Part shown: piece by piece, positions 2,992-39,311 of the stretch
Layout of the letters: each line of letters begins with the position of its first letter
How positions within the stretch are numbered: position 1 is the stretch's first letter
NCBI GenBank assembly: GCA_030836805.1
Contig: JAUPLS010000174.1
Coordinates: forward strand, 1 to 39,311
DNA length: 39,311 nt
From: Campylobacterota bacterium
Lineage (GTDB): Bacteria; Campylobacterota; Campylobacteria; Campylobacterales; Sulfurovaceae
Direction of reading: 5' to 3'
Program-made: the position numbers and the translations under genes
Notes under the pieces: generated by a model
Database searches by the model: none
What the model was told of the DNA's origin: nothing
What the model saw: only the letters and a program-made list of their open reading frames with translations

Positions 2992-3020
2992 TTTATAAAT
3001 GATAAAAGATTTATTATAAT
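2992..3020 (+). promoter_or_regulatory. Sigma70-like promoter for ncRNA copy 1
   Basis: TTTATA (2992-2997) - 17 nt - TATAAT (3015-3020). Confidence 0.6.
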
Positions 3021-3026
3021 TGAATT

Positions 3027-3377
3027 GTAAGTGGTAAAAAGTTATTGCTATATATGCAATAGGTTGAGCAAAGAGTAGGGAGGGGAAACCGCCGAACGGC
3101 TTTGCAAGTCCTTAAAAACAGCGCAAGAAAGAGAGCAGGCGCAACGGTGGGTGAATGATAGATCCGGCTCGGGAGCATAGAAATATGCCATAAGTCTGTC
3201 ATCGTCCATTTCGGTCCATACGGTAGTGACCAGTTGGTAAAACGCAAAAAAACATGGGAGGGTTTCGTCTTTTAATCCTCCGGTAGTATATAAAGATCTT
3301 AAGTAACTCAGAAGCATAAGTATATCAAAGAATGTTTTGCGGCTCGGTTTTCTATTTCAAGGTTTTGGTTTTGGTGG
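3027..3377 (+). ncRNA. Large structured ncRNA, copy 1 (candidate omega-RNA/HEARO-like; family unverified)
   Basis: Homologous to 17232-17586; less AT-rich than flanks; conserved hairpins with compensatory changes (3043-3048/3056-3061; 3068-3073/3100-3105; 3121-3124/3139-3142; 3155-3162/3195-3202; 3175-3179/3184-3188; 3213-3216/3228-3231; 3257-3261/3277-3281). Confidence 0.85.
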
Positions 3378-3457: not shown

Positions 3458-3898
3458 ATGAAGAAAACAAATGTGCGTTATGTTAATCGCTGCAATTTAA
3501 CTCTTGTTAATCAGTTGAATGATTTGCTCAAAAATTCTGGCTATAGATTTGAATATGAATATGTTTATAACAGACACGAGCAAATTATCAAGCGTGAATA
3601 TATAATCAAAGTTTTGGAAGAGAACAGCGATACAAACATCACTGAGCCGCTTTTTTGGTATAGTGAGAATGGTCAAAGATGTGTCAAAAAAATAACTTAT
3701 GATGATGTTATTGCAAAAATAAACAACTATATGACAGCATACAAAGAAACAGGATATGCACTCCATCAGCCAGCATTTGAATATTTTGTGCAATGCTTTG
3801 ATGATATTAAAAACATTCTTGAAGTAAACAAAACATATAATAGTATTAACAGTAAACTAAAAACAACGACTAAATGTATTAAGACTTTAAAAGTATGA
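3458..3898 (+). CDS. Hypothetical protein; ends in shared C-terminal tail (...TTKCIKTLKV)
   Basis: GGAG RBS before ATG 3458; TATAAT upstream; ATGA overlap with next gene. Confidence 0.7.
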   Translation: MKKTNVRYVNRCNLTLVNQLNDLLKNSGYRFEYEYVYNRHEQIIKREYIIKVLEENSDTNITEPLFWYSENGQRCVKKITYDDVIAKINNYMTAYKETGYALHQPAFEYFVQCFDDIKNILEVNKTYNSINSKLKTTTKCIKTLKV

Positions 3899-8275: not shown

Positions 8276-8716
8276 ATGAATAAATACTTAATGGAAGAAA
8301 TTAAAAACATAGCTGGGGGTATAATGGATCAGCTTGCATATGATTGGATATATTTTGATATAAAAGATTTAAAAGAGTTTATTGAAAATGTAGGATGTAA
8401 TCCTGAGGGTGTATTTGTTGAATGGTGTGACTCTTATTTTCCAAATCATGAAGATGCAATTGAAGTTTTAAGACAAGATGAAGCCGCAGTTTATGCTGCA
8501 TTTAATGGATTTATTAAAGTAAAAGATGCTGCTCATATTATATCATATAGGAACGATTGTATATATGATATTTACGATTTAAAAGACTTTGAAAAAATTG
8601 ATGAGTTAAAATATTTGATTGAAAATATTGATGAGTTTATTATTAAAAAAGAGAAAGAAGAACTTGAAAATGCTATTCCAGAAGTAAAAACAGAAAGCAA
8701 AAAATTGAAAATTTAA
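8276..8716 (+). CDS. Hypothetical protein; shared C-terminal tail (...NAIPEVKTESKKLKI)
   Basis: Promoter cassette A plus AAGGAG RBS. Confidence 0.7.
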   Translation: MNKYLMEEIKNIAGGIMDQLAYDWIYFDIKDLKEFIENVGCNPEGVFVEWCDSYFPNHEDAIEVLRQDEAAVYAAFNGFIKVKDAAHIISYRNDCIYDIYDLKDFEKIDELKYLIENIDEFIIKKEKEELENAIPEVKTESKKLKI

Positions 8717-10065
8717 AACCATCCGCCAGAACTTCTGGCGGTTTCTTCTTTTTTCTTTGTATTTTCTTCGTCTATAAAATCAATCCATCCGCCATTCTTG
8801 TTTTCGCTTAATTCAGTTAATGCCCAAACTAAAGCATCAAGGCGGTCTGGTGACTTCTGTTTTGTATCGCCAGTGTAGTTGACCATTTGATCTTCTAACT
8901 TGCCAAACATTCCGATATGGTGTACTTTTCCCTGCTCGTATAATGCACTTATTGGCTCGGCTCTCAATATCTTTCCTCTTGTTGCCGTAACTTTTTTATA
9001 CGACACATTGCCATCTAAATTTCGTATAATGTCTTCAATCATATCGCCGCCATTGTTTGTTTCTGCTATTATTCTATCGGCTTTATAATCATAATAAGCA
9101 TTGATTGCAACTCGTGCCCAATCAGCAGGTTTGGCAAGCACTGTCAAATCTTTTATGATATAATAATGCCCGTCCTCACCTTTTCCAGCCACAACAATAC
9201 CAGTAAAGTCAGCCTCGGCGGAAGAAGTTACAGCGGGGTCAATAGCTACAACGATACGAGAAAAACTGTCATAATTTTCAACACGTAAGTCATCAATTTG
9301 TTTTAATGTCCATAATGCGTTCTCGTTTTCTTCTAAAACTTCCGCATATATTTCTTGTCTTCCAAGTCTTGTGCCTTCATACTTATCAATAATTTTATTT
9401 AAAAATGAAGGTGCTAAATTATTTTTATTGTCAAAAGTTGAGCCTCTCGTTATAATTGTTGATTTTTCTTTTATTAGATCTTTTATTAGTTTGGTTGGGC
9501 GTGGTGTAGTTGTTATACACGCCTGAGGATTCTTTCCTAAGCGCAAACCTAAAAATACTTGATCCCAAGCGTCAGGATAACGCCAAGCCGCAAGCTCATC
9601 AGCCCACAATTTCATGTGTTGTTTTCCGCGCATACGATCTGGTTCTTCTGCTGAGAAAATTAAACTAATAGCACCATTAGGCCAGTATAGTTGCCCATTC
9701 TTAAATGTTGGTCGATCCCACCTATCACAAACGCTTAAAATTCCACTCTCACCCTGAACCATAATTTGTTTAGCATCGTCACTCGTTGCACCTATCAAAT
9801 TAACATACTTATTTGTTTTAACTTGCTCTTTAATCCACTCAGCGCCAACCCTTGTTTTTCCAAATCCACGCCCAGCCATAACCAACCAAATCATCCAATC
9901 TCCATCAGGTGTTCTTTGTTGTGGTCGTGCATTCCAATCCCAATCATAAAAAAGTTTTTCAGCCTCGTCGTCGCTCATTTTCATAATGCGGCGGATCTGT
10001 TCTTCTTTGCTTAACTGTTGGAATAGTTGTCTTTTACTTAATATTGACATAATAATATTATCCAT
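8713..10065 (-). CDS. terL: Terminase large subunit
   Basis: Walker A-like MAGRGFGKTRVGAEW, LWADELAAW (Walker B), VVAIDPAVTS...DFTGIVVAG nuclease motif. Confidence 0.92.
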   Translation of the reverse strand: MDNIIMSILSKRQLFQQLSKEEQIRRIMKMSDDEAEKLFYDWDWNARPQQRTPDGDWMIWLVMAGRGFGKTRVGAEWIKEQVKTNKYVNLIGATSDDAKQIMVQGESGILSVCDRWDRPTFKNGQLYWPNGAISLIFSAEEPDRMRGKQHMKLWADELAAWRYPDAWDQVFLGLRLGKNPQACITTTPRPTKLIKDLIKEKSTIITRGSTFDNKNNLAPSFLNKIIDKYEGTRLGRQEIYAEVLEENENALWTLKQIDDLRVENYDSFSRIVVAIDPAVTSSAEADFTGIVVAGKGEDGHYYIIKDLTVLAKPADWARVAINAYYDYKADRIIAETNNGGDMIEDIIRNLDGNVSYKKVTATRGKILRAEPISALYEQGKVHHIGMFGKLEDQMVNYTGDTKQKSPDRLDALVWALTELSENKNGGWIDFIDEENTKKKEETARSSGGWF

Positions 10066-17197: not shown

Positions 17198-17225
17198 TTG
17201 ATTTTTGTTTTTTTTTAAGTATAAT
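17198..17225 (+). promoter_or_regulatory. Sigma70-like promoter for ncRNA copy 2
   Basis: TTGATT (17198-17203) - 16 nt - TATAAT (17220-17225). Confidence 0.6.
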
Positions 17226-17231
17226 TAAATC

Positions 17232-17586
17232 ATAAGAAGTTTTTATTAATGGACGTGAGTAACGTCCGGTGCAAAAGAGTATGGAGGGGAAACCGCCGAA
17301 CGGCTTTTGCTAACTTATAACGCACAAGAACGAGCGCAGGTGCAACAGAGGGTGGATTATAGATCTGGCGTGGGGGATAGTAAAATATCTGTAAGTCTGT
17401 AATCGTCTTGTTTCGGTCCATACGGCAGTGACCAGAATACGGAGATAAACGAAATCACTATGGGAGGGTTTCGTCCTTTAATCCTCCGGCAGTATATAAA
17501 GATCTTAAAACATAGTAACTCAAAAGCATAAGTATATCAAGAAGGTTTTGCGGCTCGGTTTTCTATTCAGGGGTTTGGGTTTGGTG
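17232..17586 (+). ncRNA. Large structured ncRNA, copy 2 (same family as 3027-3377)
   Basis: Same ordered hairpins with compensatory changes: 17251-17256/17262-17267; 17271-17277/17304-17310; 17322-17325/17340-17343; 17355-17363/17396-17404. Confidence 0.85.
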
Positions 17587-17608: not shown

Positions 17609-17866
17609 TTATAATTCAGCATTAAAAATAAATGCGTTAATTCTATCCAAACAATTTTGGTCAATTACATTCATTGAAAATAAAAGTGGTATCATTTGCG
17701 TTTGAATTAATGGACTTTTCAAATTTATATCGTTTAAATTGTCAAACATAAATCGTATTGCCTTTTGTTCTGGCTCAACACCATTTAAAAACATACTAAA
17801 CATAAAAGCTTTATCGCCTAATAACTCAAAAAGTTCACCTTTTGAAATCATACATTCAGTTCTCAT
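17609..17866 (-). CDS. Hypothetical small protein downstream of putative fibre gene
   Basis: 85 aa, adjacent to upstream ORF. Confidence 0.45.
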   Translation of the reverse strand: MRTECMISKGELFELLGDKAFMFSMFLNGVEPEQKAIRFMFDNLNDINLKSPLIQTQMIPLLFSMNVIDQNCLDRINAFIFNAEL

Positions 17867-20918: not shown

Positions 20919-21272
20919 TTAATTTTTTATCAGGTCTTGAATTACTGACATTTTAAAAATTTCAGTTGATTGCACAACATCAACATCTATAATGCTAAAC
21001 TCGCAATAATATTCTTTAGCATCAATATTCATCTCTATCGATGTTAAAACCAAATTATAAATACCGGCTTGAGTTTCTGTGTTGTCTGGAACATCGAAAG
21101 ATTTTAATAAAACAGCTTCATTATTTGCGTCTAAAACTTTATTGAAAATACCAAATTTTAAAACCTTATTTGCAATATTTAAAGGTGTGGTTGTTCCATT
21201 TGCCTTGCTAAAAAAATTTAGTCTGGATATAAATGTGTCACCTTTTTTTGCTGTCAAAGTCTTATAGCTCAT
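20919..21272 (-). CDS. Putative baseplate/fibre-region protein
   Basis: 117 aa; operonic with structural genes. Confidence 0.4.
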   Translation of the reverse strand: MSYKTLTAKKGDTFISRLNFFSKANGTTTPLNIANKVLKFGIFNKVLDANNEAVLLKSFDVPDNTETQAGIYNLVLTSIEMNIDAKEYYCEFSIIDVDVVQSTEIFKMSVIQDLIKN

Positions 21273-21318: not shown

Positions 21319-21753
21319 TCAATTTTTAAATCTTTCAACTATCTGTTTTGTATCTGCGACTTTTCCAATTATGTTTTTCTTGAAGATTTTTGCACGGATG
21401 TTGTTATTATACCACAAGTGACTCTCCAGAACGCCAAACTCAAATTGCAATTTTTCTTCGGTATAATTCAATGCACTTTTACTATTGCAAAAAACTAATA
21501 TCTCACGCTTGAAATTTTCCTTGCCAAATTTTTCCACATCAGCCAAAAGAGTTGGACTCGATGAATAATAGTCCTCCCAGTCGCTTGATTTTCTAATTTT
21601 CTTTTTTACACCGTTTACTTGTTTATATGCTGCTTTTGTTAATAGTTTACGCCCAACATAACGCATTCCATTCAACTCATTAGTAATAATATATACAAAA
21701 CCAATTGCGGATAATGGCGGCTCTATTAGTTGCTCGTTGTGATATATCCACAT
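21319..21753 (-). CDS. GIY-YIG-like endonuclease
   Basis: GFVYIITNELNGMRYVGRK motif; phage Seg-like arrangement. Confidence 0.65.
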   Translation of the reverse strand: MWIYHNEQLIEPPLSAIGFVYIITNELNGMRYVGRKLLTKAAYKQVNGVKKKIRKSSDWEDYYSSSPTLLADVEKFGKENFKREILVFCNSKSALNYTEEKLQFEFGVLESHLWYNNNIRAKIFKKNIIGKVADTKQIVERFKN

Positions 21754-22277: not shown

Positions 22278-22646
22278 TTGATAGAAAACTTTAAGGGTTA
22301 TAAAATGATTGTTAAATTGAATAAAGCGGTTTTGTGGGAAATTTTTGAATACTTCACCGAGGGGAAGACATATATAAAAGATATAAAATTGTGGGCAAGT
22401 AATAATAAAATTATTTGTTTTGATACGATGATATATAAGCCACACGACCTTTTTATGGAAGTTGAAAACGAGAAAGAATTGAAAATTTTTTATGATGGTA
22501 ATGAATTGGATATAATTAAAATAGTAGTCATATATGATGAAAAAAGAAGAGAAGAGATGTCAGTTGAAAAGTTTAAGCAATTTTTTATTGAAGAGATAAT
22601 GAACTACATCGCAAAAACAAACAAATTTGAGTGGGAGTATAAATGA
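22278..22646 (+). CDS. Hypothetical protein
   Basis: Follows tRNA; overlaps next ORF (ATGATG). Confidence 0.5.
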   Translation: MIENFKGYKMIVKLNKAVLWEIFEYFTEGKTYIKDIKLWASNNKIICFDTMIYKPHDLFMEVENEKELKIFYDGNELDIIKIVVIYDEKRREEMSVEKFKQFFIEEIMNYIAKTNKFEWEYK

Positions 22647-39155: not shown

Positions 39156-39311
39156 TAAAAACTTTATTTTTTACAAAAACCTCATCAACCATTATTGTTG
39201 CGAATATGTTAAATAAGAAAATACAGAATAGAGCAAAGTTTATTGCTGTCAACTGTTGCACGATAATCATATCCAAAACAGTGAAGCCGAAAAAAATTAA
39301 ATTCAATATAA
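39133..39311 (-). CDS. 3' part of junction-spanning small membrane protein
   Basis: Same frame as the ORF beginning at 152 (minus), TAA at 39135-39133. Confidence 0.55.
   Translation of the reverse strand, partial: ILNLIFFGFTVLDMIIVQQLTAINFALFCIFLFNIFATIMVDEVFVKNKVFNEDNKNV
39191..39311. repeat. Second copy of the 121-bp terminal repeat
   Basis: Identical to 1-121. Confidence 0.97.

Follow-up and report, generated by a model that had tools for sequence, protein, structure and literature searches.

Two diverged copies of a structured non-coding RNA in a 39-kb phage genome

Two copies of one RNA unit between phage genes

The window that we analysed, the whole 39,311-nt stretch of DNA, contains two plus-strand copies of an RNA unit, 351 nt (copy 1) and 355 nt (copy 2) in length, each preceded by a σ70-like promoter site (Table 1). 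Copy 1 sits between divergent genes, and a co-directional gene of 146–148 aa starts about 75 nt after it; PHROGs, Pfam, PADLOC and GenBank phages contain no relative of its protein. Copy 2 lies between two minus-strand genes, the next gene downstream being on the strand opposite to the RNA.

The ends of the window are identical, and because of this 121-bp terminal direct repeat (1–121 = 39191–39311) the window appears to be a circular phage genome, complete at 39,190 bp. It carries genes for a small and a large terminase, portal, head, connector, tail and lysis proteins, two DNA methyltransferases, a helicase and a SegE-like GIY-YIG nuclease. Its nearest named relatives are the Brevundimonas phages Strzyga and Polewnik, whose terminase, portal and one head protein share about 44% identity with its own; the RNA was absent from this phage lineage (Strzyga searched whole) and from Acinetobacter phage 5W. 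The phage contig was placed in a 1.73-Mb MAG, and binning alone is the basis of the link between phage and host. No 16S gene was found with which to place the host taxonomically. Since the large terminase was found in none of the 174 other genomes searched from the MAG’s family, the phage may be free rather than a resident prophage, or its contig may have been binned wrongly. Elsewhere in the genome, the SegE-like endonuclease adjoins a small protein weakly similar to the Eco29kI restriction endonuclease, and a 122-aa protein resembles CRISPR type III-A Csm2 weakly in two libraries (E = 0.014 and 0.029).

Table 1 Features of the RNA copies and of the genes discussed. Parts of the RNA are given at their positions in copy 1 unless stated otherwise.
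Feature	Position	Strand	Basis
σ70-like promoter, copy 1: TTTATA-17-TATAAT	2992..3020	+	Consensus scan
RNA unit, copy 1	3027..3377	+	
5′ hairpin TATTGC/GCAATA; GGACGT/ACGTCC instead in copy 2	3043..3061	+	Sequence, folds
Hairpin GCAAAG...CTTTGC; loop contains most of the 25-nt invariant block GGAGGGGAAACCGCCGAACGGCTTT	3068..3105	+	Alignment, folds
Stem GCGC/GCGC; GCAC/GTGC in copy 2	3121..3142	+	Compensatory changes
Long arm GGGTGaATGATAGAT...AAGTCTGTCATCGTC, inner hairpin GCATA/TATGC	3150..3206	+	Consensus fold
Hairpin GGTC/GACC, loop CATACGGyAGT; invariant except one loop base	3213..3231	+	Consensus fold, alignment
8-bp hairpin GGAGGGTT/AATCCTCC, invariant stem	3257..3281	+	Consensus fold, alignment
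Conserved stretch AGTATATAAAGATCTTAA...AAGCATAAGTATATC without conserved local structure; contains palindrome AAGATCTT, a candidate contact between RNA molecules	3285..3326	+	Shuffles, alignment
23-nt invariant 3′ block GTTTTGCGGCTCGGTTTTCTATT; could pair with the 5′ invariant block	3334..3356	+	Alignment, pairing test
G-tract run GGTTTTGGTTTTGGTGG; copy 2 equivalent GGGGTTTGGGTTTGG at 17570–17584	3361..3377	+	Sequence
Co-directional gene after copy 1 (146–148 aa)	3452/3458..3898	+	
Large terminase	8713..10065		
σ70-like promoter, copy 2: TTGATT-16-TATAAT	17198..17225	+	Consensus scan
RNA unit, copy 2	17232..17586	+	
Next gene after copy 2	17609..17866	−	
Small protein weakly similar to Eco29kI	20919..21272		
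SegE-like GIY-YIG endonuclease	21319..21753		
Sole phage tRNA	22184..22267		
122-aa protein weakly similar to Csm2	22278..22646		

Alignment of the two regions (from 2600 and from 16800) with blastn gave a single match of 322 columns at 81% identity (E = 7e-76), and identity was 81% in the core and 73% over the full 351/355-nt unit, in keeping with an earlier reading of the sequence alone that had described the same RNA twice at roughly three-quarters identity. Every near-identical block quoted in that reading was present in both copies, and the unit is indeed less AT-rich than its surroundings (G+C 0.43 vs 0.33 for the window). Similarity begins at a common TATAAT box (3015–3020; 17220–17225) and stops past the G-tract run; the flanks of the two copies are unrelated, sharing nothing above short chance words in blastn. 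Conservation within the unit is patchy, with eleven invariant blocks of 8–25 nt each separated by linkers near chance identity (down to 3–8 of 20 columns matching). Because invariant blocks alternate with near-chance linkers, we infer that the two copies arose long ago and that strong constraint acts on the blocks. The G-tract runs mark the 3′ edge in both copies, and a two-tier G-quadruplex pattern fits copy 1.

The alternative that the region encodes a conserved protein, raised alongside the reading as non-coding, is excluded by stops in all six frames of both copies and by several indels between the copies that are not multiples of three. Each copy had also been credited with its own promoter: a σ70-like site does lie upstream of each, at a distance from −10 box to RNA that is equal in both, although as consensus matches these promoters are predicted ones. 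A scan of either copy’s region found no intrinsic terminator.

The co-directional gene just past copy 1 is what a cis-acting leader, such as a riboswitch or attenuator duplicated together with its downstream gene, would be expected to precede. The gene after copy 2, however, is on the opposite strand, the sequences downstream of the two copies are unrelated and no known riboswitch in Rfam was matched, and we give a leader only a slight chance. As copy 2 is without a co-directional downstream gene, cis regulation cannot account for both copies, and action in trans is favoured. Nor did either copy contain the tandem array of short repeats that precedes a ToxN-like gene in type III toxin-antitoxin systems, and no known family was matched by the protein downstream of copy 1.

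Compensatory changes and a conserved fold

We then compared the consensus fold of the two copies with that of shuffled alignments. The RNAalifold consensus contained pairs with changes on both sides and reached −65.7 kcal/mol, lower than in each of 150 column shuffles (−41.7 ± 4.5), in an alignment whose 5′ hairpins were put in register by hand, a placement that contributes part of the signal. With unadjusted MAFFT columns the consensus fold gave z = −3.3, and with the 5′ hairpin left out z = −3.0 (0 of 100 shuffles as low in each case); across alignments z ranged from about −3 to −5. Doubly changed pairs numbered 11 in the hand-registered alignment vs a shuffle mean of 4.2, a count reached in 4 of 150 shuffles. 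Folded singly, the copies were no better than dinucleotide shuffles (z = −0.5 and +0.6).

All four sets of compensatory changes named in the sequence-only reading proved real: those of the 5′ hairpin and of the GCGC/GCGC stem (Table 1), the closing stem GCAAAG/CTTTGC, which becomes GCAAAAG/CTTTTGC, and tGatagat/gtctgtCa, which becomes tTatagat/gtctgtAa. A further hairpin, not among these sets, carries three double changes (CG>AU, AU>UA, UA>AU), and the long arm carries four double compensatory changes in total and by itself gives z = −3.4. These tests support a structured non-coding RNA in two diverged copies with compensatory changes, the covariation being drawn from two sequences only, as no homologues for wider covariation were found. 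The plus strand had been taken as the RNA, and its consensus energy is the lower (−65.7 vs −50.6 kcal/mol for the minus strand), although the reverse complement, too, folds better than shuffles of itself.

Conserved local structure does not extend over the last 100 columns (z = +1.9). The presence of about 50 nt that are conserved and locally unpaired in the consensus would suit a small antisense RNA using this stretch to pair with phage mRNAs. Against 51 phage start regions, however, the best pairing did not exceed that of shuffles for copy 1 and was about 1.3 sd better for copy 2, and the best targets differed between the two copies, making antisense action on phage mRNAs very unlikely in our estimate.

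A helix of 11–12 bp can form between GGAGGGGAAACCGCCGAACGGCTTT and GTTTTGCGGCTCGGTTTTCTATT, the longest two invariant blocks, and forcing this helix in the nested fold costs only 1.6–3.3 kcal/mol. The support is marginal: pairing as good arose in 115 of 2000 shuffled block pairs, and both strands are invariant, every pair being identical in the two copies. The long-range pairing of GAAACCG with CGGTTTT put forward earlier, and with it the proposed helix between strands GGAAACCGCCG and CGGCUCGGUUUUC, is plausible but for these two reasons unproven. In pseudoknot form, the helix could exist alongside the local GCAAAG/CTTTGC stem.

Searches for relatives and known families

Having described the fold, we compared the RNA with known families. 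The Rfam library includes GOLLD, ROOL, OLE, HEARO, group I and II introns, RNase P, tmRNA, SRP and 6S RNAs. Searching the whole window against Rfam release 15 at gathering thresholds gave no match, and searching each copy at E ≤ 10 returned just unrelated sub-threshold chance matches. This cmsearch comparison had been proposed with the sequence-only reading, and none of the families it listed (HEARO, GOLLD, ROOL, group I/II introns) was matched; the covariance models of bacterial RNase P RNA, tmRNA, SRP RNA and 6S RNA likewise gave no match. Two resemblances noted by eye were set aside: RNase P was considered from GTGCAACAGAG in copy 2, a string not kept in copy 1 and without an Rfam match, and the likeness of GGGGAAACC to 16S helix 45 is that of a short string.

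The long invariant blocks without local pairing, together with GIY-YIG endonuclease genes in the phage such as the SegE-like one, are features that a ribozyme or a self-splicing intron remnant might display. Yet no group I/II intron or other ribozyme family was matched, and the units are intergenic, with promoter-like sites, rather than inside a gene; such an origin has, in our view, a low probability.

To look beyond known families, we scanned IMG/VR with six patterns from the conserved blocks, several of which had 16–28 specified bases. An 18-mer pattern gave 31 matches, none significant by a two-copy profile, three further patterns gave zero matches, and two looser ones gave 14 and 4 chance matches. 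In the GTDB species genomes, a pattern for the 3′ block gave two matches, neither with other parts of the RNA. With several conserved blocks covered in IMG/VR and one in GTDB, both collections probably contain no close relative, while distant relatives without the exact strings could escape such scans. When 175 family genomes, 399 order genomes, 80 terminase-bearing IMG/VR loci and 27 related phage records were searched with a covariance model built from the two copies, no match was credible as a homologue. The weak matches of this model (17–23 bits) were rejected: they omit about 220–230 model positions and cover AT-rich ends only, and their small nominal E-values are rough. Searches with blastn of GenBank phages, PLSDB plasmids and further family, class and phylum genomes gave nothing credible. 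By sequence and fold, the RNA is thus a new family as far as these tools reach.

A proposed trans-acting phage RNA gene

We propose that each copy is an independent, trans-acting phage RNA gene with its own σ70-like promoter and an untranslated transcript of about 350 nt, a reading to which we assign a probability of about 0.68. What the data support well is an RNA gene whose fold is conserved; the transcription and its ends, the pseudoknot, the action in trans, the partner and the effect are what we infer around it. In this scheme, the promoter of each copy would drive an untranslated transcript, which would fold in order into the 5′ hairpin, a second hairpin with the invariant GGAAACCGCCG loop strand, a small stem, the long branched arm and two hairpins, followed by the invariant stretch without local fold. 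The invariant loop strand would then pair with the invariant 3′ block, closing the molecule by a pseudoknot. The alternation of frozen blocks with near-saturated linkers suggests a defined RNA particle or RNA–protein complex, and such a compact particle might engage a host or phage partner (a ribosome, nuclease or defence protein) during infection, in a mode of action that we liken to that of the large phage RNAs GOLLD and ROOL. That the RNA represents a new class of phage RNA, a ribozyme or RNA–protein machine that works in a way not described for any phage RNA, is a more speculative idea that we consider unlikely.

To our knowledge, few large structured RNAs have been described in phages, and most of them lack an explanation. 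The present RNA adds to them from a 39-kb phage and is short enough for in vitro synthesis and probing, and its two diverged copies already tell fixed bases from those that vary in concert. It also illustrates that RNAs of this kind can lack relatives in present databases, where surveys starting from many homologues miss them.

Comparison with known systems

Among phage-encoded structured RNAs, the phi29 packaging RNA (pRNA) differs in that the present phage has ordinary small and large terminase genes and its RNA has no pRNA match in Rfam.

HEARO, the IsrB omega-RNA (RF02033), is about equal in length to this RNA, that of Limnospira maxima being 343 nt (PMC12286853). This length, and a fold that could be closed by a pseudoknot, would accord with a guide or scaffold RNA of an RNA-guided nuclease supplied in trans. 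However, RF02033 matches neither copy, nor the rest of the assembly, in a search in which no control genome matched either; the flanking proteins are without an IscB/IsrB domain, no IscB/IsrB/TnpB/Cas9-like protein was recognised among the phage proteins scanned, and the variable 5′ end forms a hairpin, not a free guide. We therefore accord a guide function a very small likelihood, and return to the trans-acting RNA gene and its nearest counterparts.

GOLLD and ROOL, found in phages and prophages, are large structured RNAs of unknown function whose folds are elaborate and contain pseudoknots (PMC12286853). In contrast to the roughly 650 or more than 800 nt of those RNAs, the present one has about 350 nt; it gives no match to either at E ≤ 10 and occurs in two copies within one phage. 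GOLLD and ROOL assemble into homo-oligomeric RNA cages and often lie near tRNA genes; the only tRNA of this phage is 4.6 kb from copy 2. The RNA described here is likewise large, structured and carried by a phage, and GOLLD and ROOL are its closest counterparts in kind, a likeness that implies no membership.
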